Of a stretch of 64,000 nt of DNA, positions 10,331-31,382 are shown piece by piece (positions within the stretch are counted from its first letter, which is position 1; each line of letters begins with the position of its first letter). This DNA is from Apostichopus japonicus (Eukaryota > Echinodermata > Holothuroidea > Aspidochirotida > Stichopodidae): positions 2,852,501 through 2,916,500 of the forward strand of contig NC_092573.1 of assembly GCF_037975245.1 (NCBI RefSeq), read 5' to 3'. Position numbers and translations under genes: made by a program. The notes under the pieces are model-generated. The model did no database searches. It was not told the origin of the DNA and saw only the letters and a program-made list of their open reading frames with translations.

Positions 10331-12000
10331 GCAGCCACCTAGGCCTACAGGGTGCAGGTAAATTGTGGCGGGGTATTAATGCAACTAGGCCTGGCTGGAG
10401 CCTTTGTTACATATATTTGAACTGGTAGGTATTTATTTTTCTCATGCTGAAATATTACGAAAATGAAGGTGTTCAGACTATGCATTGTTCCTAACTTCGC
10501 ATTACTCTTACTGTAATATAGTACTTACGAGTACAACTAGCCTAGCCTAGTACTAGGCCTAGTAGTATTACTAAATGGACCCTGCATAGTTTAGAAACAG
10601 AATATGAGAGGGTTTTCAACCATTCAACTGAAGAAATACCCGTGCGAAACAAAATTCACCCTTCATTAGATTTGCTCTGCAGATATCAATTGTGTAAGTT
10701 TCGGAAATTCCGGTAAATTTTTTACGGAAATTTTTTTATTTTCTGTACAGGAAACTATTGGCTCAGCCTAGCCTATGCCTAGGTAGACAACGTCGGAGTA
10801 TAATTCGAACGGCCAACTAAAATGGCGGCCAAAAGTTGATAGGCATTAAATATTTGAAATAGACTGGTCTAATTCTTAACTTCAATTCATAATAAATTCA
10901 TTTTATTCACCGAAAATTGTGGTTGATTGGTAAAAGTGTTGAGATTTTGCGAGGTTCCATTCTAGTTAACACAATGTTGAAATACCTGATGGAAATATTT
11001 TTCAAAGGTCATTTTTTATGGGAAGGTCGTAAAATTTTGTGACCTAACATTGAATTTATTTCTGATTTTATTACATATTTGAAAACTGGTAGGTTTTCAT
11101 TTTCCCTTGATGTAATATTACGAACATGAGGGTGTCCGATCTTAGAAGAGTTCCTAACTTCGCAATACTGTATATAGGCCTAGGCTAGGCCTAGTAATAA
11201 TAGACTAGTACAAATCAGCCTTAACTTAGACATACGCTAGGTCCACTGTACTAACGGAGTAACGTTAGATCGAACACAGTGGCGTCTCCAAATTCATATT
11301 ATTATCATTTAAATATTATCATTAAATACTTACTAAATAAATAAACTTACGCTTTCTTTTACTGGCGAGTTGGATTTGGTAAATATGGAACGCAAATACC
11401 AATATTCTGCTGCACTGGATCTAATTGTTGAGAGTTGGGTTTGGTGTGCTTTTTACGTGACCCGCCATGCGGGATACAAAACGTCACGGGTAGTACGAGC
11501 ACGCAGTTCTATTGATTTTTACCCCAAACATCCAACATATCGACAAGCGCTCGTCCAATCACAATAGGAATCATAAATTCAACCAATGACATTGCCTTAT
11601 TACTGCATGATCACCGTGTGTTTTTATCTAATTATCATAAAGACAGGGAGTTGAATTTAAAGGTACAGGTCACGATACAAAATAATAACACTATGTTCAC
11701 CGATGTAATTGAGAAAATGGTTACGTGTACATCGCAATACCTTTAAGTACCATGCGCTGTATTAAAAATCACCTAAAAAATTACGGAAAACGTACCAAAA
11801 GTATGTTTTCTGATCATTTTAAAACGTTATCAATAAGTAACATTTAAGTGTCATCTTGTGATGTACACTACGATGAAATTTCACATCAAACAGACATTTG
11901 GGTAAAAACTAGTAGGCATTTAAAGAGCCCTCAGACTGAAAACGATTGGTGTGAGATAATCTCCATATATGTAATATATGGAGATAAAAAGTACGAACCT
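10331..12000. other. Non-coding stretch with CTAG/TAGGCCTA-rich patches
   Basis: Patches rich in AGCCTAG, TAGGCCTA and CTAGTA occur near 10530-10575, 10765-10785 and 11175-11215. Similar patches appear near candidate first exons elsewhere in the window. The 11350-11600 part is richer in CpG, contains CCAAT motifs and could include a promoter. I see no exon with both a start and a donor. Confidence 0.4.
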
Positions 12001-12034
12001 CTTTTTTGATGTACATTGATGATTTAGGCAATCC

Positions 12035-12349
12035 TTAAATCAGCAACTGCATTATTTCTTCTTCTAATTTCTTCATCTCATAGAACCTAGCTTCCTCAAG
12101 TAACATATCCAATTCGGGAAAGTTTGTGGGTACGATGAGCGCACCAACTCGCAGAAAATTCAAGATGTAGCGAAATAGGCTTCCGTCTCGGTCGATGAAA
12201 ACATTACCGTTGCGGTCTATGGTCCATTTTGAAGGGTTTTGTGAAAACATCTTTCCAATGACGGATTCTTGATCACATTTTAGAACTTCCCGGGTAGTAG
12301 TATAGAAGTTACCGCCGACATTGAGGTAAACAGCACCGGATTGATCCAT
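12035..12349 (-). CDS. KCTD-like BTB/T1 protein, truncated copy
   Basis: A single 104-codon frame opens at ATG 12349. It holds a potassium-channel-tetramerisation-type BTB (T1) fold: LNVGGNFYTT at residues 10-19, FIDRDGSLFRYILNFLR at about 51-67 and EEARFYEMKKLEEEI near the end. Proteins of this type usually assemble as oligomers, and many act as adaptors for cullin-3 ubiquitin ligases; that is family knowledge. The frame stops just after the BTB domain. The related gene at 43268-43867 continues for about 98 more residues. The 5' and 3' flanks of the two genes still match, so this copy appears to have lost its C-terminal half by an internal deletion. It could be a BTB-only protein or a pseudogene. 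The BTB part has no internal stop. Confidence 0.75.
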   Translation of the reverse strand: MDQSGAVYLNVGGNFYTTTREVLKCDQESVIGKMFSQNPSKWTIDRNGNVFIDRDGSLFRYILNFLRVGALIVPTNFPELDMLLEEARFYEMKKLEEEIMQLLI

Positions 12350-12415
12350 AATGAGGATTTATGGAACAATTTCGTTTCAAATTATCTACCACTGCTACTA
12401 ACTGCTACTGCTACT

Positions 12416-12469
12416 AACGTTGTCAAATACCTTGGTGTCTTAATCGACAACCGTCTGTCCTTTAACGAG
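12416..12469 (+). pseudogene. Non-LTR retrotransposon RT fragment
   Basis: Eighteen codons read NVVKYLGVLIDNRLSFNE, matching the conserved YLGV-ID-LSF motif near the end of LINE reverse-transcriptase domains. Nothing else of the element is readable. It lies close upstream of the truncated KCTD copy. Confidence 0.7.
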
Positions 12470-13664
12470 AGAACCTTCTCGAATGTTCCACAGACCAGTC
12501 GGTAATCTGACCTGGTGACCCTCATTATGTTCAAGATATGTGACGTCAAGCTTTTTTGAATTTTAGCACTAAATTTGAAAAGTAGACAACAAAACTTTAC
12601 AGCTGAATATCTCTTAAAGAAATGGCATAACGATGATTTCACTCCCACACACACACTACAAAACAACATGATCAACTTTTAAGAAACTTTCGAAGAGAAA
12701 TTACACACTTACGGCGGGTCACGACCAACGTGAACGAATCGAGCACTGTGTATCCAAGTTTCAAAACGTGAACACGTGAGTAAAAAAAAATGGCCAAAAT
12801 TGAACTTTCCGTGCGTGAACATACTCGATATCCGCACAAAAGCATCTTGAAATCCCAACACAGATTTAGGTACTTCTTATGGTTTAATCCGAGTTCTAAT
12901 ACGGACACTTACAGATGTTTTACGACGGCTATTGTCAGTACGAAACATTAGGTCCATTCTTAAAAACAAAAATGGCGGACTGCTTCATAAGGTCATGCAT
13001 ATTCATTGTATAGTAATGACAACGTCATCAAATTACGCCTTTTCTGATGAATAGTCATGAAATATTAGATGACTGACAACCATTCCCGGTACTAAAAGCA
13101 CACGCAATTTCCACTGCTTTTGATCCGGTGTTTCAGAATATTTTTGACTTGCTTTGGTTAAGTTAAAACTGAGATTTGAACCATTTTTAAGTATGTGGAA
13201 CATGAGAAAAGCAAAAAACCACTCGGTTTATTTGTTTTGTACAAACTTAGGGCATCAGGATTATTAATTTTAATTGTAAGGACAGGGAAATCAAAACATG
13301 GTAGCCGAGGTTGGGGACTATCCAGGAAAGGGATGGTGTGGAGAGGTATGTGTGTGTTTGTTGGTGGGTGGGCGGGAGGGGGCATCAGTGATATGGAACA
13401 GATTGGAGGGAAAAGCTTATTGGCTGCCAACACAAAAATCTAACCCATTGGGGTGCTAATGGAATAAGAGGGGGGGGGGGGGAGGTTGACATGGAAATAA
13501 ACTCATCATTTGGAAGTCATCCTTAATGCATCGGTAGTAACATTCTGTGCGATCACCACTGTCCTACAGTACCAGTAACAAATAAAGACCAAATAAAGAA
13601 GAAAGATCAGGGTTCTCCAAGTCCTTATTTATCCTTGGAAGTTATCTTTATTATAAACTCCTTG
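12470..13664. other. Spacer, no gene seen
   Basis: The open frames here lack family resemblance. A GT/G-rich stretch lies at 13340-13385 and a G-run at 13471-13483. A phrase TCTAATACGGACACTTACAG near 12896 resembles one near 23455, which suggests a short dispersed repeat. Confidence 0.5.
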
Positions 13665-13684
13665 GTACTTAACATGAAACAAAG

Positions 13685-15150
13685 CTATATAAATTTCAAC
13701 ACAAATGTGTAGAGGAATGAATACAAAAATGAAAAGGTTATGTATATAATATTAAAATGGCATAGAAGGTAATATATGACTTTTATAATTGGACTGTACA
13801 TGGAGGTAAGATGTGGTACATAGACATTTCAACAAAAAAGGTGACAAGGCAAAATAAAATATGATAATTTTAAAGAAGCTCACCATACACGAAGCATGTA
13901 GAGGTGGACAGGTGTATACAAAGTGAAAGAACTATTAAGTATTAAAAGTATAGCATTGTAAAACAGAAAGAGATGATAGTTAAACAATTCACGTCACATA
14001 ATGAAATGTGATTATCAGGCAGCAAAGATGGCAGTTTTCTTTTTTAAATAAATGAAAGTAATGTGACCAGAAGTATGAGTACAGTATGCTATGATGTGGA
14101 ATCAATATAGCACAGGGCACTGAACAAAGGTGGAATGAAAGATACCAAAAAAATGTAATAATGCTTTATAAATTTCAACAAAAATGTGTAGAGGAAAGCA
14201 CACAAAAATGAAAAGGGTAATCATATAACATTAAAATGGCATAGAAGGTAATATATAGAGATATTTGTAATTATACTGTATATGACCAAAAACAGCTAAC
14301 TCTGTACACGGAGGTAAGATGCACATAGACATTTAAGTGAATGAGGAGACAAGGCAAAATAATATATGATAATTGAAAGAAGCCCACCATACATGAAGCA
14401 TGTAGAGTTAGACAGGTATATACACATTGAAAGAACTTTTTAGTGTTGAACGAAAAGCATTATAAAACAGAAAGAGATGATAGTTAAACCATTCACATCA
14501 CATAATGAAATGTGCTTATCAGGCAGCAGAGGTGGCAGTTTTCTTTTTTAAATAAATGAAAGTAATGTGACCAGATGTATGAGTACAGTATGCTATGATG
14601 TGGAATCAATATAGCACAGGGCACTGAACAAAGGTGGAATGAAAGATACCAAAAAAATGTAATAATGCTTTATAAATTTCAACAAAAATGTGTATAGGAA
14701 AGCACACAAAAATGAAAAGGGTAATCATATAACATTAAAATGGCATAGAAGGTAATATATAGAGATATTTATAATTATACTGTATATGACCAAAAACAGC
14801 TAACTCTGTACACGGAGGTAAGATGCACATAGACATTTAAGTGAATGAGGAGACAAGGCAAAATAATATATGATAATTGAAAGAAGCCCACCATACATGA
14901 AGCATGTAGAGTTAGACAGGTATATACACATTGAAAGAACTTTTTAGTGTTGAACGAAAAGCATTATAAAACAGAAAGAGATGATAGTTAAACCATTCAC
15001 ATCACATAATCAAATGTGCTTATCAGGCAGCAGAGGTGGCAGTTTTCTTTTTTAAATAAATGACAGCTAATGTGACCAGATGTATGAGTACAGTATGCTA
15101 TGATTTTGAATCAATATAGCACAGGGCACTAAAAAAGGTGAAATGAAAGA
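13685..15150. repeat. Tandem triplication of a ~504-bp unit
   Basis: The phrase GCAGTTTTCTTTTTTAAATA occurs at 14031, 14535 and 15039, exactly 504 bases apart each time. The second and third copies are nearly identical over their length. The first is more diverged and slightly shorter at its start. No coding frame runs through the units. Confidence 0.9.
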
Positions 15151-15309
15151 TAAAAGAGTAACTTAAAGATAAAGAAAAGAATATATCAAAAATGTACATG
15201 TAGAAAAGGTGTGACTAAAAAATAAAAGTGATGTAAATGTTGAAAGCATCTACAGAATACAGACACAGCAATCAATGAGCCAGTCACAACACATTACAAA
15301 CGTATGTAC

Positions 15310-15860
15310 GAAGAGGCAGCACATGAAAGGACAGAGTCTTTTACAGTTTATGTGGGACGTAGTGAAAGACGGCATGTGATGTTGTCACAAGATCAGCTGA
15401 TATATGAAATAACTTATAGTAACAAGGAAACACAAGGTCTAATTGCTCAAGGTTTATGAAGTACTGAAGAACTTTCAAAAAGAAAAAATGAAAAAAAAAA
15501 CCCATATAATGGAATGAAGTGTAATCCAGATACATGGTAGCTTTTGCACAACACATAACAAAGGTACATACAGCAGCTGCAGCACAAGAAGGACGGAGCC
15601 TTTTACAAAGTTTTTGTGGGACGGATTGAAAGACTGCATGTGATGTTGTCACAAGATCAGTTGATATATGAATATGTGTTATATGAGAAAATTAAACTTA
15701 ACAAGGTGGCATGCTCCATGACTGGAACTTTTATAAGGCTTTAATAATATCGGCAAGCATTAGTGTTGTGTTTAAAAATGGCACGGCAAGGTATTGTTTT
15801 ATGACAAACTTTGCCTAAGGTTTAATTGCTCAAGGTATATTAAGTACTGAAGGAAATTTA
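15310..15860. repeat. Diverged ~265-bp tandem duplication
   Basis: A block with GTGGGACG, GCATGTGATGTTGTCACAAG and GATATATGAA at 15351-15410 recurs near 15615-15675. The phrase TAATTGCTCAAGGT-TAT-AAGTACTGAA also occurs twice (near 15440 and 15820). The copies are diverged. Confidence 0.7.
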
Positions 15861-17006
15861 AAAGATATGGAGAAAAAAATAATTCATTGTAATGTATCAT
15901 TGGGTGGCAAGAAGGCAGGTTTTAAGGCAGCACCAAATGCTAGAAGGTTTTAAGGCAGCACCAAATGCTAGATGATAAAGTATTCTCAAATATATAATAA
16001 AAAATAAAATAGATCATGAGATGTAAAGGCTATGTAGTAATGCCACAATGCACAACTACTGGCGATAACATTTTTTCATGTTTGCTATGTTTCCCTCTAA
16101 TTTTTCCCCCCTCTAATTGTGTCATGTTTCCCTCGTATGCACTAATATTAAGATAAGTAATAAAATTGGACTGAAAACACCAGAATGTCCTTAACTTCAC
16201 AAAGTGGTGAAAGGTGAACTAAGAACCATCCCAAAAGCCCCTTCCCAAAAAAGGGCCACCTCTCACAAATAATGCACCTAAATATCCACTTAGTTCCTCC
16301 CTCCCCTCCATCACCCACCAACTGAACCCCACAGCTCAACCACCCCCCCCCCTCCACCCCAAAAGCAAAAAAAATAAGAACTTGAATAAGTAGAAACAAA
16401 TTTTGACCACACTATACTTTTGTCTAGAATAGGACTTATGTTTTGACATCCAACATGTAAACCAATTCACTATAAATCACTACAGTATTGCAGTATTGAA
16501 GGATTAAGGCAGCTAAAGATGTTCATTTTGTGTATATTTTCATCCACAAAGCAATTACTCATCATTCATAGTGCAAGACTTTTTTGATAAAACAAAACCT
16601 ACCACAAATATCATCATAAGTAAACAAAGGAACCTCACTACTATTGCTTGACAGTTTAAAAGACCTGTACTCTTTTTATCTAAAGTTTACTGACAAAAGC
16701 TTCACAACACATTCTGGATTGAAAGTCAAGTCTGATTTTTTATTTCACATGTTAAACAAACCTTGATGATGACAGTAGTTTTGGAGATAATTTTTGAATA
16801 ATTTCTCATGTAATCAACAGTGGTAAGCACTCACTTTATTGGCAAACTCACTGTTTAAAGGGGCATAAGTACCTAACAGTAAAAGGAAATAATAATGTTG
16901 GATGTCAAAACCCAAACCTGTAACTTTCCATTATGACTGCTGTGACGGCACCTGAGAATGAGAAAAACAGTAAAAAGTTGATACATCAGTTGATGTAGAG
17001 GCTAAC
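15861..17006. other. Downstream spacer of the 1755-codon gene
   Basis: No exon is supported. A roughly 27-base phrase containing TTTTAAGGCAGCACCAAATG is duplicated at 15914-15968. A C-rich run lies near 16341. The 3' UTR and poly(A) site of the minus-strand gene ending at 17007 should lie here. I did not define them. Confidence 0.45.
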
Positions 17007-20000
17007 TTATATACCATTGTCATCAAAATACTCAGTTTCAGTTGCAGCAGCTGCAACTAATTTGCAAAACTCATCAATATCAAACAATTCAGTTTCATTT
17101 TCTTCATCTAGTAATTCATTACCAGATAAAGAGTCTGCATCTGAAGAGTCAGAGCCAGAGTCACTGTCAAACTGTTCTTGATGACTAACAAGATGTGCTG
17201 GATTAGAGGATTCGGGTGAGATTTCTACGGTATCAACATTTGACAGGGTTTTATTCTCACAACTCTGACACTGACAAAATATGGAACAGATTTTACCATC
17301 TTTCCTACATTTACACCAATTTCTGGTGCAGCCTTTCTTGCATTTGCAACCTTCCTTCAGGTGCTGAATGTTGCGGTTAACTTTCTCCAAGTTCACTTCG
17401 GTATCCCACACAACACTAACTTTGTCATTTGCAACAGTCCAACCATGGGAAGTCAATTCCGGAACTGTTACATTCGAGGAGCATGCCTGAGCCCATACAG
17501 TAAGAACCCAGCAACATCTCTGCCAATGCAACCGGAGTGCATCTGTTGAAGGCATCCACTCTGACTCTCCAGAAATTCTATGGAAGTGTCCATTTCTAAT
17601 AGACTCAAGAAAGGTTGTGTGATTCTCAAGGTTACTTTTTTCTGTTAACCAGAGGGATAAAAGAAGTTCTCGTGGACTCTCAGCCTCAAAGGCACTGCAG
17701 TGCTTTCTGAAATAGACTGAACCTATTAAACGATAGAAGGCTAGAAGACCTACTTCAGAATGCCTGAAGTCATCCAGTTTTCCACAAGCATCAGGTCCAG
17801 TGATGAACTCACAGTCCCTGAAGAAAACATCCAAAAAACCCTTTTTAGAGTGACCTTTAAAGAAAGAAGTAAAATCACAGCCACTAACCACATACAAAGT
17901 CTGAAAGAAAGTAGGGATGTGGTCAATTAGACTTGGTCCAACCTTCTGAAGGGAGACATCACATGTTAGTAAATTAATAAGAACATTCATATCTATAAAC
18001 AAATTGTCATTCTTAGCAGCTCTCAACTGCACATACACCTGCTTTGAGGTAAAAGAAGACATAAGCGGTAGTCCCACATGGAAGGTGTCTCGATCAGGGG
18101 AATAAATAACTACTCGTTCACAAGTGGTTTTTCCTGTGTGGAACCAAACCCTAGAGTCACCTTCTTCATGATTGGAGGTCAACTCACTGACTACAGATAT
18201 AGTAGGGTTGTTCTTTGAAACAGATAATGCTTGATCTGTGTTGTCTCCATCGAAACCACCAGCAGTTATCAAAATAATAGGTGCAGTATCAGCCTGTTCA
18301 GCAATATGTAGGAGCTCCATAGATAAAAAATTCACTAATAACCTCTTCTGACTTCGAACACAAAGAAATTTTCTCCAATTAGAAGGACAGAGCGTCTCGG
18401 GAAGTATTTCAGTGTACAGTGCCTCCTCAACAGTGCCATCACGACGGACCCGTTCAATATCCTTCGGACTACAACCATGCCTTCCCGGGTGATCGAACAC
18501 AATATGTATTTCACAAGCATTAAATTCCCTCATTGCTTTAACAACCCAACGTCTATACAAAAAAAGAGCATACTCTCTGAACGTTTTGTGTATTCTTAAG
18601 GGGGGACAATTGACCATGAACATACCTTCAATTATACATGATGTTTTTGTTTGGGAAGATGCAGGGCATAACTTTGAACAGAAGGCATCTGGGTACCTCT
18701 TTTGCAACTCTGATGCAGATTTTGACTTACAGGCTTTGAAGGGTAATCCATCTGGACAACAAATGGCACGTGGAAGGGAAACAAATTGGTATAGACACTC
18801 AACAGGCTGATTTGATGCCTTTGATAGAGCAACCTGTCTCCTTAGAGACAATATCTGTAGCTTTTGATCTTTAATTTCGTATGATTGCTTCTGAATAGAT
18901 TTTTTCTTGACAGTGAATGTCTTCAAATTTCGCCTGGATCGTTTAGGCGGCTTTGTGCCTGAAGTGTTCAGAACAACACAACGAATAAATGCAACAAGAT
19001 CTTCCTCCCCTTTGTCATAAAAAGTCTGCAGATCCTGCGACACAACTTCTGATGAAATCTCACCAGTGAAAATATGATGTATGCGATCAGGTTGCGGACC
19101 CTTATTAAAAATCAAACCAGCATCTGTCAACTTACCAAAGTACTGCACGACATTCGCCTCATGCGATTTGAACAATGACAGAGGAAGACTTTCCTGAGAT
19201 CTTTTAGATTTGTCAGTGCACTGAATTTCACTTTTCAAATTTTTTAGTACTCTAGCCCTATATGGTAGGTAATGAAGAAGACGGGACATGCTTCCCATGC
19301 CAGTTGTTGTCATGGCCATTTTAAACTCCTTATTAATTAGCATTTCGTGTGCTTCATCAAAAGCTACAGAACATCCATCATTACCAGAAATACTGACAGC
19401 AAATGCACCTTTTTTGAAATTAGAGAGAATATCTGGTGGAAACTGCTTAAGTTCTGCCATGTGAAAAGGGACTAATTTGAGGTATATTGGTCTGTCCATT
19501 GCATGAAAAATGGGAGCAAGCTTTCTGACTGAAGCAGTACACAAACTGAATTGCCGCAGCCTTATTGCCATGAACAGACTAGCATAGTGTAGCATGTCTC
19601 TATGTATGAAATAGTGCCAAAACTGGGAAGTGGCATCTGCTGTACTCATAGTTTCAAAATATGGGAGAAATTTCTCCTGAAAGAACGAAAACATGTTTGT
19701 AAGTTCATCAATGTTATGAAAAACATTACTACCATTCACACAGATCTGTTCCTTTACAGAACTATAAAGGGACTGGTAAATGTTTACATCAGCTTCTTGA
19801 GATGTTATGGCTTGATTTGTAGCAAATGTTGTAATTTGTTGCCTATAAAAGGCTTCCCATGACTGCATTAAGAATATATGAGTTTTTCTGAATCCAGATG
19901 CTGAAGCAACAGCAGCATGTGTAGCTCCACGATGGAACATACTCAGTAGGTTTCTCAAGCCTGCGTCATTATACAATTTCATTAATGGTGCTTGTATGTT

Positions 20001-22274
20001 CTTTAGAAGATGCCACTCCCCAAGGTATGGTAACAACCAATCTAAATCATCACCATACATTCGTTTAGCATTATGCATGTACTCATATGTTTTAGCATCC
20101 CCTGCGACAACTAGATGTTGAATGTTTTTACCAACTCCATGCTTATCATGCAAAATATCTATAGCATGTCTCATTGTTTCTGCATTATCTGCAGGTTCTC
20201 CTAAAATGCATGTGTAATGGACAGATGACTGTTCTGTTACACTGGGTGTCATGTGTGTCAAAGCTGTTTTGAAATCAGGAAGAACACAAGTGAGCCCCTC
20301 ATTGTGACATACATACTTTGTGAACATATAACAAAACACTTTTGTCTTCATGTTTGTAAGTGCATTGTTCTCATCATCTGAGAGTGAAAACGAGTCAATA
20401 TTAATGGATACATCTGAAATAAGAGGATGGAAGCGTGTCGGAACTCCTGATGGATATGAAGACTGAACCTCATGATACTGGTTAAGGGTAATGGAGTCAA
20501 TCTGCTGTGAAGTAGAAGGCACATTATAGTTTGAATCAGGAGTCACTTCTGGAAGTGTTTCTGTGGAAGTTGGCAAGGGTTGCACAGCCTGAATGGATGT
20601 GCCATGAAATCCCCTGTCCAGCTGACCAGCAGACACAGCAGCATAACTTGCACTTCTGTCAATGTTATCAATTGATGCCACTGCAAAGCCACGAGAAAGT
20701 AGGGATGGCTTATCAGCCATTTCTTGGGCTGCAATTTGTGTCTGAAATCGTTGATATGTGGATTTGCTGACAGTAACACCAAAGGAAGAAAGATAATGAA
20801 AGCATGTTGATGATGATGAACTGAACCTGTCAACCACGTCTGAGATAGCTAGATGGATGGGTGAAAAGCAGTTATCGTTAAGTGTATATAACATGTTAGC
20901 ACAAATAAAATAACGCTTCAGCATTTTCTTCCGATGTACTGTTGACGAAACATGAAGCTGTTGAAGAAAATGTGTATGCCAACTGAAGTCACCACAAGAC
21001 AGCAGTTGCTTCTTCTCAACATCATTGAGTGTACTGTGGTAAATGAAATTCCATAGGAAGGGGGGTAATTTGAGTATTTCAGCTTCAATGTTGATTTGAT
21101 CTATCCCAGAATATTTGACTGCTTGGTCCTGTATGGTCTTGGTTGCAGGAATCATTTGCTCTGATAGTGTATTACAAAAGTACTCCGAGCTGAGCTGATT
21201 TGCTGGAACTTGGTTTTGCTTTCTAAGTAAATCTACCTGCAATATGAGATCTGCCTTTTCTCGTGAAAAATGGAAAAGAGATGTATGTAAGCATGTAAGT
21301 ATATCAGTCCCACATCGCCGGATGAGAGTACCAAGCCTACGCTGTTCACTGATGTGAGAAGCAATAAAACAATCACCTATAGCAGACTTAACTTGGGCGA
21401 AGAACTGCATTTTGTTTTTCTTACTTGGCAAGTCTTGATTGCTATTTTCATCCCGTACTGATGAGCAATTGTTAAAACTTTTGGAATAAAAATCATAGAC
21501 TGTTTCAAGTAAAATTGCTCTATCCTCTAATAACTCTCGACCTAAAAATAGCAAAGACTGGGCAAAGGCATAAACCTCACACTTATCAGCACTCTCAAGT
21601 GTGGTTGTTCGAAAGTGGTCTAACAGCTCAGAGAGATATTGCTTTGAAGTTTTTACACTCTCCAAATACTCTGAGCTAATGGCATACCTTGAAACTGCCT
21701 GATAACAGGTGTTGCACAGTAAACTATCTCTTTCAAAAGTGACATCTGTCTTAAGGGAATGTTTAATATAAGCAGTAACAACACAAGGTTCTCTGTATGA
21801 ACGCATTGCTGAACTTGTCGAAAGACATATGGAACAATCCTTAAAGATGATTTTGTTTGTAAGAATACAGTAATGAGCATGGCAAAGAAAAATTCCTGAC
21901 CTGTTACAGCAAAGCTCAATAGCAGTGGCATCATCAATGTCAAACAAATTGGTTAGAGTGCTACGGTTAACAAATTTTGATGTCTGATGCACATTTTCTT
22001 GACTAGTGCAATTTGGCAACTGACATGTATTTGACGAAGGTCTTTTCGAGGGAGGCCTAGATTCATCTTTGACTGAGCTTAGTCTAAGTTTACATGCATA
22101 GCAAACACAGTCATAATCCAATATATTTTTCTGCCTTAGCACTATAACCAACTGAGAATTAGCAGGAGTGGCTTGAGCTATGTGCCAGTAACGCGGCTTG
22201 GACTCTTTACATACAGTACATGGTCCAGCAACTTTCTCTTCATGGTATAACTGACAAGCTGTTTTCTTTGGCAT
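17007..22274 (-). CDS. Giant intronless zinc-finger / PIN-like / CXC protein
   Basis: One uninterrupted frame of 1755 codons from ATG 22274, the MPKK start. In-frame codons continue upstream to 22439, but the hydrophobic leader they add looks like UTR. In order: Cys-rich zinc-binding segments in about residues 1-260 (CTVCKES, CYACKLR, CSICL, CNTC); a central region with GDAKTYEYMHNAKRMYG near 720 and GEWHLLKN near 752, like the GDWH-type motif of DUF6589/transposase-like proteins; a region with FHAMDRPIYLKLVPFHMAEL shared by many uncharacterised invertebrate proteins; a PIN/FEN-like module with FDHPGRHGCSP near 1260, YSPDRDT near 1391 and SGCDFTSFF near 1465; a CXC (tesmin-like) zinc cluster at about 1643-1675; and an acidic, Ser-rich tail. 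CXC domains usually bind DNA. A nuclear protein of transposon origin is my inference. No homologous copy is seen elsewhere in the window. Confidence 0.85.
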   Translation of the reverse strand: MPKKTACQLYHEEKVAGPCTVCKESKPRYWHIAQATPANSQLVIVLRQKNILDYDCVCYACKLRLSSVKDESRPPSKRPSSNTCQLPNCTSQENVHQTSKFVNRSTLTNLFDIDDATAIELCCNRSGIFLCHAHYCILTNKIIFKDCSICLSTSSAMRSYREPCVVTAYIKHSLKTDVTFERDSLLCNTCYQAVSRYAISSEYLESVKTSKQYLSELLDHFRTTTLESADKCEVYAFAQSLLFLGRELLEDRAILLETVYDFYSKSFNNCSSVRDENSNQDLPSKKNKMQFFAQVKSAIGDCFIASHISEQRRLGTLIRRCGTDILTCLHTSLFHFSREKADLILQVDLLRKQNQVPANQLSSEYFCNTLSEQMIPATKTIQDQAVKYSGIDQINIEAEILKLPPFLWNFIYHSTLNDVEKKQLLSCGDFSWHTHFLQQLHVSSTVHRKKMLKRYFICANMLYTLNDNCFSPIHLAISDVVDRFSSSSSTCFHYLSSFGVTVSKSTYQRFQTQIAAQEMADKPSLLSRGFAVASIDNIDRSASYAAVSAGQLDRGFHGTSIQAVQPLPTSTETLPEVTPDSNYNVPSTSQQIDSITLNQYHEVQSSYPSGVPTRFHPLISDVSINIDSFSLSDDENNALTNMKTKVFCYMFTKYVCHNEGLTCVLPDFKTALTHMTPSVTEQSSVHYTCILGEPADNAETMRHAIDILHDKHGVGKNIQHLVVAGDAKTYEYMHNAKRMYGDDLDWLLPYLGEWHLLKNIQAPLMKLYNDAGLRNLLSMFHRGATHAAVASASGFRKTHIFLMQSWEAFYRQQITTFATNQAITSQEADVNIYQSLYSSVKEQICVNGSNVFHNIDELTNMFSFFQEKFLPYFETMSTADATSQFWHYFIHRDMLHYASLFMAIRLRQFSLCTASVRKLAPIFHAMDRPIYLKLVPFHMAELKQFPPDILSNFKKGAFAVSISGNDGCSVAFDEAHEMLINKEFKMAMTTTGMGSMSRLLHYLPYRARVLKNLKSEIQCTDKSKRSQESLPLSLFKSHEANVVQYFGKLTDAGLIFNKGPQPDRIHHIFTGEISSEVVSQDLQTFYDKGEEDLVAFIRCVVLNTSGTKPPKRSRRNLKTFTVKKKSIQKQSYEIKDQKLQILSLRRQVALSKASNQPVECLYQFVSLPRAICCPDGLPFKACKSKSASELQKRYPDAFCSKLCPASSQTKTSCIIEGMFMVNCPPLRIHKTFREYALFLYRRWVVKAMREFNACEIHIVFDHPGRHGCSPKDIERVRRDGTVEEALYTEILPETLCPSNWRKFLCVRSQKRLLVNFLSMELLHIAEQADTAPIILITAGGFDGDNTDQALSVSKNNPTISVVSELTSNHEEGDSRVWFHTGKTTCERVVIYSPDRDTFHVGLPLMSSFTSKQVYVQLRAAKNDNLFIDMNVLINLLTCDVSLQKVGPSLIDHIPTFFQTLYVVSGCDFTSFFKGHSKKGFLDVFFRDCEFITGPDACGKLDDFRHSEVGLLAFYRLIGSVYFRKHCSAFEAESPRELLLSLWLTEKSNLENHTTFLESIRNGHFHRISGESEWMPSTDALRLHWQRCCWVLTVWAQACSSNVTVPELTSHGWTVANDKVSVVWDTEVNLEKVNRNIQHLKEGCKCKKGCTRNWCKCRKDGKICSIFCQCQSCENKTLSNVDTVEISPESSNPAHLVSHQEQFDSDSGSDSSDADSLSGNELLDEENETELFDIDEFCKLVAAAATETEYFDDNGI

Positions 22275-23498
22275 GATGTCATGATAGTTAAAAAGTAAAA
22301 AAAAACAGAATGACAAGTTCCACACGAAAATTAGAAACTTATATGATACACATAAGCACATACTCATTGTAGTCAGGGTGCAAATTGTTATCTCCCTGTT
22401 TCCTAAACATACAATTGAATTAATACACTGAGTAATCAAAACTTTGGACTCGTCAGTAAGCAGAGATTTAAATTTCTAAGCTACAAGTACAAGCAGAATG
22501 CAGGCCTATGTTGTACCCACATCCCAAAATCCCAAGGCTGCATGTGTCTCAAAAGGTTCAAGATCATTCGCCAAAAAAATGAAACCCTGCTTTGTATTGA
22601 AATGTTGGTTAGTGCATCTGCTAAAACTAGTGGGCAAAACTGCAGCTAGAAAATAGAATGCTGTTTATTCTACATAACTATTAGGAATATATGAATATGT
22701 AGATAGGCCTTGCCTTGAAAATGCCTACTAACTTTACCCAAGATTGAGAACAGCACTCCACCCAAAGCTTAAGTAATGTATATATTTCCTAAAACTAAAA
22801 GTGACACTCCAGTCAACAGATATATAACAGACTTAGGCCATAGCCTTACTTTATATCTAAGCTTACGCCGTGCCCTGCTTTGTACTAGTACTACTAGGGC
22901 CAAGACCAATGAGGCCTTAAAGTTGAAGTTATTAAAATATGAAGATTTGGGCCTAGCCTAAAAAGTACATGACCATAGGCCGGTTGGCTACCCCTATACT
23001 TCTTAGGAATACAGAACCCTAATACTAATAGTAGTATCATACTTAAATTTAAGAGCGATCCGCGATTAGGAAACTATATAAAATTTGTCACAACGAATTT
23101 AAAGAATTTACGGTGTGGCGAAGCCCTACCTACGTTGCTAACAACTATGTCCAAGGCTTTAGTATGATAGTAGTTAGTAATAGTACTGTAGAAAAGTAAT
23201 ACTAGTAATAGTAACTAATAGTACGTAGGCCTATACTATTACTATTTATATGAAGCCAATGTGTTAGGCGACATTACAGTGCAACAACAACGTTAAGCCG
23301 TATGTACTGTTTCTAACGATTAAGCAAGAACTTGGTATGATGTTTGACCTAAATTTTTGTACACTTTTTACGGGTGAACAAAATCCAAACTTACAGCTTC
23401 GATGCTTTAACGTATTGCCAACATTTTGAAACCATCATTATGATAATCTACATTCTAATACGGAAACCTTACAGATCCGAAAAGTCAGAGTTACTTAC
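22275..23498 (-). other. Probable 5' UTR / intron of the 1755-codon gene
   Basis: On the minus strand a plausible acceptor (TTGTACTTGTAG) lies near 22480, and a strong donor (GCAG|GTAAGTAAC) lies at 23498. That would make this region mainly an intron in the 5' UTR. It contains CTAG/TAGGCCTA-rich patches near 22915-22985 and 23215-23235. Confidence 0.4.
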
Positions 23499-23557
23499 CT
23501 GCAAATTCTCCTCGCCGTTCCACAAGGGCAGAGAAATTCATTGATTGAAGCTAGATG
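23499..23557 (-). other. Candidate 5' non-coding exon of the 1755-codon gene
   Basis: On the minus strand this GC-richer block ends in a near-consensus donor, TTTGCAG|GTAAGTAAC. It is followed downstream by the large intronless frame. No transcription start was defined. The upstream edge given here is the end of the 8-base target duplication of the adjoining transposon, so the true exon may be shorter, or may continue beyond it. Confidence 0.4.
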
Positions 23558-24154
23558 GGAGTAATTATAGAATACAGGGCCACTCGATGATACTATCTGA
23601 GCATCCGGATGCGCGGATGCTTAGTCTCACCCAAGTACGTATGTGAGTATAAAATGTCAAAGTCCCAGTTCTTTCTTTTTCAGTGGATGCGCGGATGCGT
23701 GGATGCGGAGTGTCCTTTCCTAGTACTTCTGTGGTGGAATTTTAGAGGGCATCACACATGTACGGATGCCTTTTAAGAACGACACACTATTGATGTGGAA
23801 TATCTTCGTACATACGGGACTTTCAGTATTGGAAATACGTGATGGTATATGTCGAAACTTTTCGAAAATTGTAAGTCCATTCCTAGTACTCCCAGGGTGG
23901 ATGCGCGGATGCGCGGATGCGGAGTCAAAATGAAATACGTGATGGTGTATCGTATATGGGGAAACTTTCGAAAATTATCTAAGTCCTTTCCTAGTACTCC
24001 CGGGGTGGATGCGCGGATGCGGAGTCAAAATGAAATACGTAATGGAATTTTAGAGGGCGTCATACGTGTACGGACATGTACAGACACACCGCGCATCCGC
24101 GCATCCGGATGCTGGGAAGAGTTAATGAATGGCCCTGTATTCTATAATTGTACC
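23558..24154. mobile_element. 597-bp MITE with GGATGCGC repeats, 8-bp TSD
   Basis: The ends are inverted copies of each other: a stretch including AATTATAGAATACAGGGCCA starts at about 23563, and its reverse complement ends at about 24150. The element is flanked by GCTAGATG at 23550-23557 and 24155-24162, an 8-base target-site duplication. Inside, a roughly 110-bp unit with CCTAGTACT, GGATGCGCGGATGCGGAGTC and AAATGAAATACGT is repeated about two to three times, and GGATGCGC also occurs near both ends. It has no coding capacity. An 8-bp TSD fits hAT or P superfamilies. It sits between two divergent candidate first exons. Confidence 0.8.
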
Positions 24155-24568
24155 GCTAGATGAGAACGAGTTCAACCGAATTCTAACGAAGATGTGTCTT
24201 TGCACTATATAAGGATGCTCTAATACCATATACGGCAATTCTCGGTGATCAAGATCATGCATAATTCATGTTTTAACGTGAGAATCGGTATTGGAAACGA
24301 CTCGGCTTATTTCCGCGCCATCTCCGATTTGCCACTTCCGGTTTGTGCATCGGATTCGTGAAAGTTGCGCAATAACGGTCGTTTTCGGCGAGGAGAGTTT
24401 CCACTGAGACATAATGGAATCTATTTTGGGAAAAGGCCCTGTACCAGTTGGAAGTCTGACCTCAATATATGACCGTTACTAGCAAATTTTCGAGCACAGC
24501 TACTTGACCCGGAAGTAATTGTTTCGCGCAAATCCGGTTCTACGGACTTCGGTTCGCTACTTCCATGT
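24155..24568. promoter_or_regulatory. Candidate promoter / 5' UTR of the 24569 gene
   Basis: This interval has more CpG than its surroundings and leads directly into a well-supported first coding exon on the plus strand. The other candidate first exon (23499-23557) points the opposite way, so the whole 23558-24568 interval may be a bidirectional promoter split by a transposon. A short overlapping upstream ATG lies at 24565. I saw no clear TATA box tied to a start site. Confidence 0.35.
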
Positions 24569-24952
24569 ATGGATGTAATCGGTAAAATTCGCAAACATCC
24601 CAATGTCATTCGGGTTTACGAGTATCGTAGCTCGATAAAGGATACTTTAGAGACTCAAATACGATCATTTCCGGAAAGAAACGAAGATTTTACCAATAGA
24701 GCAGTGCATTTTCTTATCGACGACCAACGCAAAAACATAAAGGTAAGTCAAATCGAGTCGACGTCTATCGTTATGTGACTTTTGCGTCTTAGACAACTTT
24801 TAACCGTGAAAATAACATTTTTGTAATATATAAGCTTGAATCTTACTCATATTTTTCAGAAAAGTTGTAACTCTCCCGAAAAGTGTGATTTTTTGGTCAA
24901 CGAAAATGGTGCTCCTATGTGGTTTTGGTTGCCCCTAATACATGTATCCTAA
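24569..24952 (+). CDS. Small two-exon gene, unknown protein
   Basis: Exon 1 is 24569-24742: 58 codons from ATG, peptide beginning MDVIGKIRKHPNVIRVYEYR and ending in a consensus donor AAG|GTAAGT. A 117-base intron ends in TATTTTTCAG. Exon 2 starts at 24860 in the same phase, adds KSCNSPEKCDFLVNENGAPM and further residues, and reaches TAA at 24950-24952. The total is 88 residues. The two phases and both splice signals agree, which supports a real gene. It may instead splice on from within exon 2, for example at ATGTG|GTTTTG, to later exons I did not find. I do not recognise the family. The N-terminal part is basic and Arg-rich. Confidence 0.5.
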
Positions 24953-25798
24953 CGTACATAATACACATATACACGAAAGCACCGTATCCTATAACGTGCA
25001 GCCTAGCGCTATATGTCGACTATGATGTAGCTAGTGCTACATTTACAACGTCTCGTATTTTTCGTAATCTTTCTATTCGGCATAGATTCCCTTCATTTTT
25101 TTGCGTTAATATGGAAAAATCAGGGAGTTGATAAGTCACGGTACTACTTATGGCTACTAAATAGTTAAAATTTAAAAATTCGAGGGCATAGCGGACAGTA
25201 ATATTACTAGTACAAGCCTAGGCTAGCCTATAGGCTAGGCCTAGTACTTTTGTATTTACTAAAGTAATATACTACGACAAGTTTTTACTACAGGTAGGCC
25301 CTAGCCTAGTTTTAGTAATACTAGAATACCTGCATAGTTTAGTCCAATTTTAATAACGGACTAAGGCTTATAACCTTTAGTTCTTAGCCTACGCCTTCTT
25401 GTCCTTGTGTAATAATTCTAAGGGGCCTGTTCTTGAAAAGATTTGGACTGCATAAGATACAATTTAGTATTATTATTATTATTATACAAAAATTATTAGT
25501 AGTACTAGTAGACTGCCTTTGTACTATGTATAAGTTAAGATCATGGCTTATCATGAGTTTTATTAAAGCTGGACTGGGTGAAAATTTCCTCCATCCTGGG
25601 ATCGGGATCCATTTCAATGTCACTTTGTTACAAGTGTTCAAGACCGTTATTAGATCCATGACTTAAGTCTAGGCCCAATTCCCTATGCTTAATATGTAGT
25701 TAGGTAGAGCAAGATACGTAACACAGAAATAAAACTAGCTTGCTTAATACTGCTTACACTTTATACTTATTGCTATTACAGTTAGACCTACTGCTGGT
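24953..25798. other. Spacer or intron with CTAG-rich patch
   Basis: A striking patch of AGCCTAGGCTAGCCTATAGG and similar words lies at 25206-25245, with a smaller one at 25295-25330. A short ATT run lies at 25466-25487. No exon is supported. Confidence 0.45.
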
Positions 25799-27528
25799 TA
25801 GTGTTCAACCGATTATGCATAACAGAAAATACCGATTACCGATTATTTTTTTCATAATCGTACCGATTCCGATTATTTGAAAATGAGAAAATATCCCGTT
25901 TATACGAAATCGGCAATAAAGTTTGACAGAAACAATTATTGTTGTGATTTTCCCCTGTTTCCTTTTGCTTCGTTGTTATACAAGGCTCTAAGGTATCATT
26001 TTGTATGTACCAAATTACCTCTGGAGTTTCTCGGAAAGAAAAAAAAAGATTTTTTTTTTTTAAATTTCCAAAATACGGAGATATGACATCCTACCTAGTC
26101 AGCACTGTGCTAAGCGAATGGCCTAACCACCTCGACGTGAATGTCACCTGTTAATGGCTTGAAATGGGCTATGAATAGTTACTCAAAATATCCATCTCAA
26201 AAAGTATCTCAGACAAACCATCCATCTTCAATCTTTACCAAAGTGTAAATTTTAAAGACATATTGCCTTCATTCCGACATTATTTTGTACTTATTTTCAG
26301 TATTATACCGTTTATGAACAAATAGAAATGTTACGAACTTGAAGTTAAACATACCTATTCGTTACCAATATAACTCCATTCAGGTTCAATTAGAATGTGT
26401 AAGCTTAGGCCAATCAAACTGAAAAGCAAATTGTACCATCGTCACTTGTTTAAAATTACTTTAAAATGTAATACCAGATTGATGTAAAGAAATAATAACA
26501 ACTAGAAACTACTCCAATATAAAATATAACATTCCCTCTATAAGACATATCACTTACATTACCTTCCAAACAAATGCCGATTTCCAGCAAACTGAAAGTT
26601 GTAAACTAAGCTACGCATTTTTTTTTTTTTTTTGCAAACCGATGGTTAGGCTACATTTCCCATTGACTTAGTGTGGTTGTTAGGCTAACATGTGGTCGAA
26701 GATTGCAGTTTCCGTGGATATTTTTAGTTTTTATTTGCGACACAACTAGAGCGAATAAACAGATGTCAAGTTTAGATTTCCATGCAGTTGATTTAGTGTG
26801 AAGTAAGGCTACCATGTGGTCGGAGATTTGTGAGGATTTTAGGTTATTTTCGCTGGTACTGCAGGCCGTAATTTACCACGGGAAGTTCCCGGTGATTGTG
26901 CGCGACCCTCTCGCACTGCTTCAAATTTGATGCGAGATGTGAGAAAACTGTTTGCGCGATTCGCGCTGCAACTGCAATTCCTAGCTAAAGCAAACGTATG
27001 TCACAATTAATTTTACACAGACACCTGATATAACGAGGGCGATTTTTTTATATTTCATTTTTCTTTTTCGCACTCGTAATTGTGCTTTAGGAGGGCTTTT
27101 TAGCACTTGCGAGGGCGAATCGCCCGTCGCCTCCGCTTATTTCCTACCCTGTCCAGCACATTCCTGAATTCGCGAAATTGCTATTGCTGCTATGCTTACT
27201 GTGCCAAGAAATATGAAGTCAATAACCACGAGGGAAGCAAAATCGGCGACCCTGGCAGCCTAATTTGATGAAAGTATACACTGTGGAAGACGTATAGGGG
27301 TGCCTTTTTTTTAATATTTCGTAGTAAAAGAACAAACCTAATTCATCAGTTGATATTTTCAACTTCCCTATGTTTTTGAATAATGATATTTTCACCTTCC
27401 ATGTGTTTTTGAATAATCGGTATGACATAACTGGTATTCCACGTAATTTTTACCGATTCCGATTATGTACCGATTATGCAATATTCGTACCGATTCCGAT
27501 TCCGATTAGGTTAATCGGTTGAACACTA
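25799..27528. mobile_element. Non-autonomous hAT element, 1730 bp
   Basis: A perfect 17-base terminal inverted repeat, TAGTGTTCAACCGATTA, stands at both ends. CTGCTGGT at 25791-25798 and 27529-27536 is a perfect 8-bp target-site duplication. This combination is diagnostic of hAT. Near each end the words CCGATTA and CCGATTCCGATTA recur several times, as expected of subterminal transposase-binding repeats. The interior is AT-rich and no transposase domain is readable, so the element must have moved using an enzyme encoded elsewhere. Confidence 0.92.
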
Positions 27529-28462
27529 CTGCTGGTACTTGAGAACAATTGCACCTCATAGAGCCATGTAGTTGTACATAGCTACTTATAATTCCAGGTG
27601 ACTTAAACATCAGGGATCATTTTGTGACAACATGTTTTGCTGTTAACGAGAGTTTACGATCTTGTTATTGTTAAGTTGTTTTCTATGATAGGTACAGTAG
27701 TAGAAGTACTTAGTTAGTCATTCACGTACAGTCTTTCCTATGTGTGTGTGTGTGTGTCACACACAGATTTCTCTAAGGTGCTTTCCCATGTATATATGAC
27801 CAAAAAAAAGTTATTCCCAAAAAGAAGAAAAGTTTCATTCACTATTAAATTTGTTTTGTTATGTATAATGACTAACATTGCAAAATGCAGTTCCACTGGT
27901 ATTAAGTATTAGCCCAGAGAGCTTCCAGAGTTTATTACATCCCCATGTTTATTATCCTCATATCTGAAGTCTTCATATAAGAGTTTATTTATAGAAATCT
28001 GTTAATAAATGTAGTCTCACATTCTATTTAATACTATACATCTTTAAGTTCCTAGCTCTGTTATATGTACCCGTAGTAAGAAGGAATGCAGCCTGTGGAT
28101 CAGTTAAGTGCCTGTTGTTACAACTCTGCTCCAAACTATTGTTTGTTTAATCAGGTTGTATTATTAGTGTGCTACCTTTAAGCAATTTTGTTTTCTATAT
28201 ATATGTAATTTACATTTTTCCTCAGTTTCTGTTATACTCTTATAGAAAGAACAAGTTGTGTGCAGCAACAGGCTGTAATATACTCAGCAGTCTCATGCCT
28301 ATTCTCTAGCTAACTCGAACAGGTTATTGGCCCAGACACATACACTGGAAGTTAACTGTGTAGAATAGATTGTTGTTTGGAATTTATGTGCTGATTTTGG
28401 AACCATTTCTTGGGAAATGTCGGTACTTAAATTGGTTAATTTAGTCGTGACAACTGACCAAT
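27529..28462. other. Spacer, no gene seen
   Basis: AT-rich, with a GT/CA microsatellite at about 27742-27767. It may include the decayed leader of the copia relic that follows, but I could not define an LTR. Confidence 0.45.
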
Positions 28463-28935
28463 ATGGCTGGAACAACAGAAGATATGACGTGGAAAATTAA
28501 CAAGATGGATGGCTCGAACTGGCTGACATGGAATTTCCAGATGAGACATTTGTTTCTTGCAAAAGACCTGTGGGCTATGAGGATGGCTCAGGAAAGTTGG
28601 GGGTTACTGTATGTGAGAAGTAGAAGAGTGCAAACTTGAAAAAGACACAACTGGCATTTTTCACCATTGTGCTTGCAATAGCATCTAGTCAGCTGGAAAT
28701 AATTACAACAAGTGACAAACCAAGTGATGCTTAGGATGCCTTGCGTACTCTGTTCGAAAAGGATTCTCTAACCAACAAAATTCAGCTCAAGAAAAAGCAC
28801 CTCAGAACTGAAATGGCAGAGGGCAAGTCAGTTGGAAATAATTTGAATTATATGAAAGGAATTATGGATCGTTGGGCTGCTATTGGTGCTCCTATTTCTG
28901 AAGAAGACCAGGTTGTTAAAGTTATATGTCAAGTT
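28463..28935 (+). pseudogene. Degraded Ty1/copia gag
   Basis: From ATG 28463 the frame reads MAGTTEDMTWKINKMDGSNW and continues in the style of copia Gag (LDGSNWLTWKFQM). A frameshift and stop near 28640 break it. A later segment resumes with DALRTLFEKDSLTNKIQLKK and RWAAIGAPISEEDQVV, again typical of copia Gag. No protease, integrase or reverse transcriptase follows. It is a dead fragment. Confidence 0.8.
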
Positions 28936-29575
28936 TGGACTTATTTATTTACTTTCTAGTTTCTACTCTTACCTTTTACTTTTATATATTTGTCTTTTAA
29001 TTTTAATCTTATGCTATATGTCACAGGTATATCTCATCATTTCAAAGTTACAAAACTATCCATCCTGCCACCTGAACTGTTGTTGCTATGTCATGCCTTC
29101 ACTATGCCACCTTGAAATACCCCTTCCAGTCATAATGCACTTGACATTGTGTGTGATTTTTTTCAGACAATATTATTGTATGAAGTCTTCACAGTATGAA
29201 GTGTGTTTCATTTCAAGAAGTATTCAAATTTTGTTAAGCTATTCCTTCCATTTGAACAAAGTATTTCACTTTGAAGTGATCAAAGTAATTTATATTTCAT
29301 GCCCATATTTTCACAGGACATTAAAACATGTTCTTTCATGGAGAGTGTCACACCAAATGTTTTTGTTTTCTTTTTTCTGTTGTTTAAAGTGCCTTATTGT
29401 TACAGTTATAAAATCAATAAAAGACCAGGCAACTCTATTTCCACTGTTGACTAATGTTCTACTATGCATGTGAAAAAGAAAACAGCCCTACTCAAAATAT
29501 TTGGTCAGAGTATCCATAGAACGTAATGTATCCAAACACGTCCTGTGTACTGAAAGTCCGCTTTTAATTTAAGTC
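28936..29575. other. AT-rich stretch, no gene supported
   Basis: A 196-codon open frame exists here but is very hydrophobic, overlaps the dead copia gag and has no family resemblance. I treat it as chance. Confidence 0.5.
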
Positions 29576-29795
29576 CCCATATGTGGCAAAACCACCTCAT
29601 CCCTCCAAAATACCCTAACTCTTCCCAAAGCTGGTGAACACCACACCCATCCCAGAGCTGGGAAACTCAAAACCCTTCCCCAAATCCGCTAAGCACCACA
29701 TTCCCTCCCCCAAAACCCCTAAAAACACCAGTACACCACACCCCTCCCCTAAACAACACCGTGTACACACCCCTACCCAAGCCACAGTACTTAAC
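29576..29795. repeat. C-rich degenerate minisatellite
   Basis: Irregular units built on ACACCACACCCCTCCC and CCCAAA dominate this block. Both strands stay open by composition alone, giving Pro/Thr/Ser-rich frames that are not credible proteins. Confidence 0.7.
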
Positions 29796-30445
29796 TCCAA
29801 TATTGACAAGTGGTTATGTAGTGTGATACATGAACCAAACAAGGATCGGTATTGACTGGAAAACTGTTAACTGATATTTATTGATGAATATAAGCAACAG
29901 ATGAGTACCCAGCTTTGCAGAATCTCACTGAGTAAGGGCTACGTGGAATTATGGTAAGTGGGTAAGTATAAATCATTTGGTATTGTAGGTATAAATCATT
30001 CGGAATTGTTGGAAGTTCCTTAGAAAACAACTAGAAATAAGGTTTGGCCTAGGCCATGTTACCTTTGTATATTCGACATGTGGTATGACCCCTTCAGTTT
30101 TGACAACAGACTCAGGAAAATTTGTGTTACCTTAATAGTTACCACCATTAATTTAGCTAGAAAGGAAACACCATCTCCCTTGCCCCCTCCCCATTTTGTC
30201 TCTCTTACCCCTCCCATACGCAGCTCTCAGTAATTTCACATTTTACGTAATCATATATTAGAACTTGGGACAAAATTTCTTCCAAACCTTAGCACAACTT
30301 AAATTACGCCACAAAACCTAGCATTCCTAATAGACCGTACACTAAAGGAATGGGTTCCACTACATTGAAAACGATTTGAGTGAAGTCTTGTCGGTAGTAA
30401 CCCATAGCATGCAAACGGCTTGGCGAAAGTCTACCTAATTTCAAA
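29796..30445. other. Spacer, no gene seen
   Basis: No exon supported. A GGCCTAGGCC motif occurs at 30043-30052, upstream of the candidate first exon at 30446. Confidence 0.4.
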
Positions 30446-30479
30446 ATGGCGGCGACAGCAACAAAATCGCCGAGTCGAG
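30446..30479 (+). CDS. Candidate first coding exon, very short
   Basis: A well-placed start (AAAATGGCGG, a good Kozak context) opens a frame MAATATKSPSR that meets a possible donor, CGAG|GTAATC, after 34 bases. The surrounding 30 bases are GC-richer than the neighbourhood, and a TAGGCCTA-type motif lies about 400 bases upstream. I did not find the next exon, so this is only a candidate transcription start and leader exon. Confidence 0.25.
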
Positions 30480-31382
30480 GTAATCGTTTTGTGACTGGCC
30501 GTCTTAGACAGCCATTTCACCTAATCTTTACAGCTTCATGTAGGAGAGTACAAGATCCACAAATGGGAGAACTTTTTTGCTGTAACTCTCTTTCGTTGGT
30601 TCGTTTTGACCTATTTTGTGTCAGTTAGGAATACATGTGTGAGGACGAAGTTGGATTGCAATCGTTGTTTCATAGGTTTTCGTTGATTTTTTCTCGGGTA
30701 TCTTTGCCCTACCATACATTGGAATTACTTTTAATCCATTCTGTGAGGTTCCGGTAAGTTGTAAACTATCAATGTCTGTAAATTCTGTGAGTGAAACGTA
30801 GGACCGACTTATATGCGGGCAAATTCAAATTTAATGATATGCGTAATCGTTGATCATTCTTCAAGGTCACGGGGTCAGACTCCCAACTGTGTACCAAGAT
30901 TCAATAAGATAGTTAAAAACTTCTCGTGGGAAAACTGAATCCATGACCTAGATAAATACATAAGAGGCCTGTAAGGTGTCTCGATGGAGTTTTTCGGTAA
31001 TATCAAAGAGATGGTATCACTATTTCATAACAATACTATGAGGGTGCATATATGTACTATATCAATACCGTGGGCGCAATAATACATTTTGTTGTAATAG
31101 GGCCAATGAAGCATACAGTCAACTATTCTTGTTTTATAAAGACGCTTAATTTGAAAAGATCGCACTGCGTTTATGGTAGGCGAGAAATGAAGCTACAAAA
31201 GAGCCGTACATTCACGATGATGCATAAATGTAGGCATGAACATATTCTTATCCCTGGCATTTGGTGGGGGGATATGGTGTATTACATCCCCTCCACCCAT
31301 TTTCATGGGGGAATATATCCCCCCTTCCCCCCCAGGATCGCCGCCCATGATTGTATATTGTATTCACTTCACTGAATAATTA
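30480..31382. other. Spacer, no gene seen
   Basis: No exon or definable repeat. A C/G-rich stretch lies at 31257-31335. Confidence 0.45.

Follow-up and report, generated by a model that had tools for sequence, protein, structure and literature searches.

A 1755-residue open frame in Apostichopus japonicus as the probable transposase of a recently active, Academ-like DNA transposon

A long open frame in the genome of the holothuroid Apostichopus japonicus probably encodes the transposase of a transposon about 11.3 kb long that is autonomous and was recently active. The element most likely belongs to AcademX, the nuclease-encoding lineage of the Academ transposons, and the way in which it would work is proposed below from its sequence. 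The frame lies in a stretch of 64,000 nucleotides of contig NC_092573.1 (C13:2852501-2916500), referred to here as the window, and the genome searched for relatives comprises 671.6 Mb on 35 contigs. The transposase reading follows from termini that begin with 5′-CAGT, 4-bp target duplications in most copies, the presence of five near-complete copies, and a second lineage that is built alike.

The long open reading frame

The frame occupies positions 17007-22274 on the minus strand, with an ATG at 22274 and a stop codon ending at 17007, and encodes 1755 residues. From stop to stop it spans 1822 amino acids, compared to a maximum of 212 in 30 first-order Markov windows of matched composition, and the list of open frames contains no second frame of at least 1000 codons anywhere in the window. 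The first-pass annotation had described a 5.3-kb frame without introns. The frame and its coordinates are borne out, with the minus strand now added, and the coding frame is indeed intronless; the extent given to the feature fell short, since the whole element runs from 12496 to 24406. On the minus strand, 5′ of the ATG, a splice donor (GCAG/GTAAGT at 23498) and an acceptor (TGTTTAG/G at about 22402) were spotted by eye. These splice-like sequences suggest a candidate non-coding first exon.

All of the motifs listed earlier for the protein were found at their places. GDAKTYEYMHN begins at residue 725, GEWHLLKN at 752, FHAMDRPIYLKLVPFHMAEL at 923, YSPDRDT at 1391 and SGCDFTSFF at 1464, and a CXC cluster spans 1643-1672. 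In addition, CxxC pairs begin at residues 19, 58, 147 and 187, and CxxxxC pairs at 84 and 131.

Ends of the element and target-site duplications

The ends of the transposon were set by comparing the flanks of five long copies. Identity to the copies on contigs C19, C20, C17 and C1 begins at window position 12496 and ceases at 24406, which gives a length of 11,911 bp, or 11,306 bp after subtraction of 605 bp for a later insertion and the additional target duplication that came with it. Both ends start with 5′-CAGT. The left terminus (12496-12512, plus strand), CAGTCGGTAATCTGACC, matches the lineage-2 terminus described below at 14 of 17 bases, while the right terminus (24390-24406, minus strand), read inward as CAGTGGAAACTCTCCTC, repeats the left end imperfectly in inverted orientation. 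Nine of the first 13 bases agree between the two ends, a value equalled by 38 of 20,000 random pairs drawn from the window. The 4-bp sequence AGAC flanks the element on both sides, at 12492-12495 and 24407-24410. 

Exact 4-bp duplications flank three of the five copies of this lineage, namely AGAC in the window, AGAA on C19 and AAGG on C17. The flanks of the C20 copy, TGTA and TCTA, share three of four bases, and the boundary comparison found no target duplication at the flanks of the C1 copy. The right end of the C1 copy abuts TGTAC and a second CAGTCGG-type terminus (locus L026, around 3179), which means that elements of this kind may repeatedly adjoin each other.

Searches of the window alone found no terminal repeats, because the ends are imperfect and the left range searched started within the element (13000 or 14000). 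A 14-bp inverted match between 15301 and 23816 was discarded as chance. When the flanks were joined across the insertion site, no other copy of the joined sequence was found in the window or the retrieved loci. In the flank at 12420-12495, one frame reads YLGVLIDNRLSFNERTF, which we take to resemble the end of a LINE reverse transcriptase; such a sequence might supply paralogous empty sites. Within the element, downstream of the open frame, a 504-bp unit is repeated in tandem about three times, at 13671-15152.

Copies in the genome, age and constraint

A 501-base probe gave 11 matches in the genome, the window included. Long matches of 95-100% identity were found on C19, C20, C1 and C17; the remaining matches, on C17 and C16, are shorter or weaker. 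Near-complete copies number five, on five contigs, two of them intact and three decayed. Identity to the window element is 99.89% for the C19 copy (11,316 aligned positions), 98.63% for C20, 95.25% for C17 and 94.15% for C1. On C19 the frame is intact, with a single amino-acid replacement and no silent difference relative to the window frame, while the C20, C17 and C1 frames are broken by stops or frame breaks.

The element moved very recently, as its C19 copy is 99.89% identical and retains an intact frame. The suggestion of a "still mobile element" is supported by this nearly identical copy on another contig, by the defined ends and by the target duplications. Of the earlier concern that the frame might be a decayed multi-copy repeat, the multi-copy part is correct and the decayed part does not apply to the window copy.

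Ratios of replacement to silent change (dN/dS) were measured only against the C20, C17 and C1 stretches, since silent sites are saturated in the more distant lineages. They are 0.26, 0.26, 0.29 and 0.67 against C1 (four of six stretches, the last with 12 stops), 0.36, 0.40, 0.59 and 1.07 against C17 (four of seven matching stretches), and 0.31, 0.64 and 1.67 against C20 (three of four). Nine of the 11 measured stretches suggest past constraint on the frame before decay, and two do not.

Related lineages and neighbouring insertions

A search of the genome with the window protein gave 51 matches from the 27 candidates scored among 353 found at first look, so that the number of family members known from it is a lower bound. 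A second lineage at C17:23.70M shows 44% protein identity and has no stop within the match. Its element is 11,005 bp long, carries a perfect 17-bp terminal repeat, CAGTTGGAAGTCTGACC, and is flanked by the duplication TGTA. A relative at C16:41.24M is flanked by TAAA and has a broken frame, so both full-length lineage-2 copies have exact 4-bp duplications. As in the window element, lineage 2 (locus L057) has repeats downstream of its open frame, visible as off-diagonal matches. On C2, yet another lineage carries an open frame, which aligns at 33% identity to the window protein.

The later insertion in the window copy, at 23558-24154, is a non-autonomous element of 597 bp whose termini are inverted repeats and whose 8-bp target duplication, GCTAGATG, has a length typical of hAT elements. 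It is absent from the other four copies: the sites on C19, C20 and C17 are uninterrupted, and the C1 copy aligns around the site. The simplest reading of the alignment is that the 597-bp element landed in the window copy alone, after that copy had separated from the others.

A deleted lineage-2 transposon at 24445-30889 begins 38 bp beyond the main element. It keeps both termini, which agree at 16 of 17 bases, and has lost the large open frame. Its flanks, TGTAC on both sides, share 5 bp compared to 4 bp in the main element. Elsewhere in the window, 12041-12391 and 43559-43909 are 89% identical to each other, and the latter overlaps an open frame of 202 amino acids, presumably of KCTD/BTB-like sequence.

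Domain architecture of the protein

Conservation was assessed in two alignments, one of four proteins with 33-58% identity to the window protein (A1) and one of nine members (A2). The N-terminal region (residues 1-200; 21675-22274, minus strand) is rich in cysteines arranged in CxxC and CxxxxC pairs. Nothing in Pfam scored above its cut-off in this region, which is presumed from its cysteine spacing to be a zinc-binding, DNA-recognition part.

The transposase core (residues 530-1010; 19245-20687, minus strand) is marked by a match to the Pfam family DUF6589 (PF20231) and by conserved acids. When the fragment 521-1120 was scanned, residues 683-1018 scored 29.5 bits against a cut-off of 27, in an alignment spanning profile positions 66-398 of 410; on the full protein the score is 25.4 bits, under the cut-off. 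Three of the four A1 members match DUF6589, the best at 1.2e-14. Candidate catalytic acids are D536/D539 in (I/V)DN(I/V)D, D726 in GDxKTY, and E977/E974 in DExHEMxINK, and these D, D and E residues are conserved in all aligned rows that cover them. After the second D, at 752, is the motif GxWHxLKN, reminiscent of the [C/D]xxH motif that hAT and MULE transposases carry. A profile of the core found no solved structure in the PDB at E up to 10. A PDB match of the single protein at E 0.23 was taken as chance. The earlier description of this region as transposase-like is supported by the DUF6589 match, the defined ends and the target-site duplications.

The C-terminal block (residues 1210-1520; 17715-18647, minus strand) is a putative FEN/XPG-like (PIN-like) nuclease. 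The FEN/XPG nucleases carry metal-binding acids in a fixed motif order. In the window protein, the corresponding acids would be those of EGMF at 1216 (E1216), FDHP at 1260 (D1261), HEExDSR at 1369 (E1370, E1371, D1373), SPDxDT at 1392 (D1394, D1396) and SGCD at 1464 (D1467). These five blocks are invariant across all four A1 proteins, and VFD, EADD and TDK/ADK follow one another likewise in the E. coli Xni and Taq polymerase sequences. In A2, one partial row, from a broken C14 copy, has H in place of D1394, the first D of SPDRDT. From the order of its acidic motifs, we infer that the block is a flap-type nuclease.

Profile searches did not confirm the PIN-like nuclease proposed in the first-pass annotation, which the conserved motif blocks nonetheless make plausible. 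None of the nine A2 members gave a Pfam match to XPG, and the block matched nothing in the PDB at E up to 10. An hhalign comparison with a bacterial FEN/PolI profile of four sequences (ygdG, a flap endonuclease of E. coli, and three relatives from the PDB) aligned 19 columns over SPDRDT at a probability of 0.7% and E 0.079, which is not significant; the transposase core, used as a control against the same profile, gave 0.3% and E 0.21.

The tail of the protein carries a tesmin/TSO1-like CXC cluster of nine cysteines (residues 1641-1675; 17250-17354, minus strand). These cysteines, which lie between 1643 and 1672 and do not vary in A1, uphold the CXC tail noted earlier; the Pfam score falls slightly short of the cut-off (PF03638, 21.4 bits on the fragment and 18.2 on the whole protein, cut-off 23.5).

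Other searches extended beyond these domains and this genome. NCBIfam gave no family at E up to 1, and Rfam no match within 12000-31500. No relatives were confirmed in viral contigs, bacterial or archaeal genomes, phages or plasmids. A pattern scan of the viral contigs for FEN/XPG motifs gave no match, and six bacterial MAG pattern matches were rejected as relatives, since the three matches that they yielded were short and had E values of 2.0-9.4.

Proposed mechanism and alternative explanations

A working scheme can be proposed. The N-terminal cysteine pairs and the CXC tail would bind the ends of the element. The DUF6589 core, with a triad of the type D536...D726...E977, would cut these ends and join them to the target at positions staggered by 4 bp. 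The C-terminal block, FEN/XPG-like in its motifs, may cleave the non-transferred strand, or trim flaps during excision or gap repair.

The last of these steps depends on the nature of the C-terminal block, and there is a modest chance that the block is instead a structural or DNA-binding part whose likeness to FEN/XPG motifs arose by chance. The missing XPG and PDB matches and the short, low-probability hhalign alignment fit such a part, while a nuclease is favoured by the five blocks of acidic motifs, which follow the FEN/XPG order and do not vary in A1. A different question is whether the frame is a domesticated host gene maintained by selection, as the first-pass annotation had also considered. 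An intact frame of 1755 codons would be expected of such a gene, and so would a dN/dS of 0.26-0.29 in three of the four measured stretches against the C1 copy, but formerly active transposons are also expected to show low dN/dS between copies. The frame does not sit at a single locus: there are terminal sequences and target duplications, two intact and three decayed near-complete copies on five contigs, and 99.89% identity between the two intact ones. Domestication is thus very improbable.

It is unlikely, to a lesser degree, that the element belongs to a DUF6589-type superfamily other than Academ, with the same layout and 4-bp duplications and a fused nuclease of independent origin. DUF6589 is the sole family above its cut-off in the protein, and neither a length of 11 kb nor a CXC tail is mentioned for Academ in the available portions of PMC10045372 and PMC10294476. 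Against this, a nuclease-like block together with 3-4 bp duplications fits the description of AcademX, as far as it is given in the accessible text of PMC10045372. A bolder form of the idea holds that giant animal transposons of about 11 kb, still moving in this genome, make up a superfamily of their own, distinct from Academ, and unite a DUF6589 DDE core, a FEN/XPG nuclease and a tesmin-type CXC cluster in one polypeptide. We give this a small chance of being right. If it were, one protein would perform excision, flap processing and end recognition, and the role of DUF6589 would be explained.

The element also has wider consequences. DUF6589, a Pfam family of unknown function, is now linked to a transposon whose ends are mapped and whose target duplications are 4 bp long, and it likely has a role in transposition. 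With two nearly identical intact copies at hand, the role of a putative flap-type nuclease in a DDE transposase becomes testable. For genome annotation, uncharacterized genes of this type, encoding some 1700 residues, can be transposons. The name DUF6589 occurred in no paper of the literature collection searched, and the titles of the six papers there that mention both XPG and DNA transposons included one piggyBac fusion protein and no transposase of such build.

Comparison with known transposon groups

Several groups may share parts of this architecture. The nuclease of AcademX is of the XPG type, and KDZ/Zisupton transposons carry CxC zinc motifs. Invertebrate proteins of the TGCDTTSAFF type presumably have a DUF6589-like part followed by a PIN-like part, the arrangement proposed for the window protein. 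The likeness to DUF6589 itself is confined to residues 683-1018, above the curated cut-off on the fragment, and Pfam assigns the family no function.

General background on Academ and Kolobok elements is provided in the available parts of PMC10799480, PMC8905726, PMC8290104 and PMC9587614. Academ comprises two lineages relevant here, and as described in the accessible text of PMC10045372, AcademX has duplications of 3 or 4 bp and is linked to a nuclease, while AcademH has duplications of 9 or 10 bp and a helicase. The window element differs from AcademH in its 4-bp duplications, and no helicase family was found among its Pfam matches. It also departs from what is recorded for Academ in general. 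At 11 kb it is twice as long as the mean of 5565 bp (5.6 kb) reported for 100 curated consensus elements of bivalve Academ in the available part of PMC10294476, and its CXC tail and 504-bp tandem repeats have no counterpart in the portions of PMC10045372 and PMC10294476 that could be consulted.

The closest named group is most likely AcademX within Academ, a comparison made by description only. Like AcademX as portrayed in the accessible text of PMC10045372, the window element is a DNA transposon that combines a transposase with a nuclease, here putative, and makes short duplications of 3-4 bp. Such duplications are exact in three of five copies of lineage 1 and in both full-length copies of lineage 2, and the terminal inverted repeats of Academ are seen as 17 perfect bases in lineage 2 and as 9 of 13 bases in lineage 1. 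The first-pass annotation's view of an "undescribed system" is therefore probably wrong, as a transposase with a nuclease and 3-4 bp duplications is already part of the AcademX description in that portion of PMC10045372. The window element probably adds a new family to a superfamily already known.
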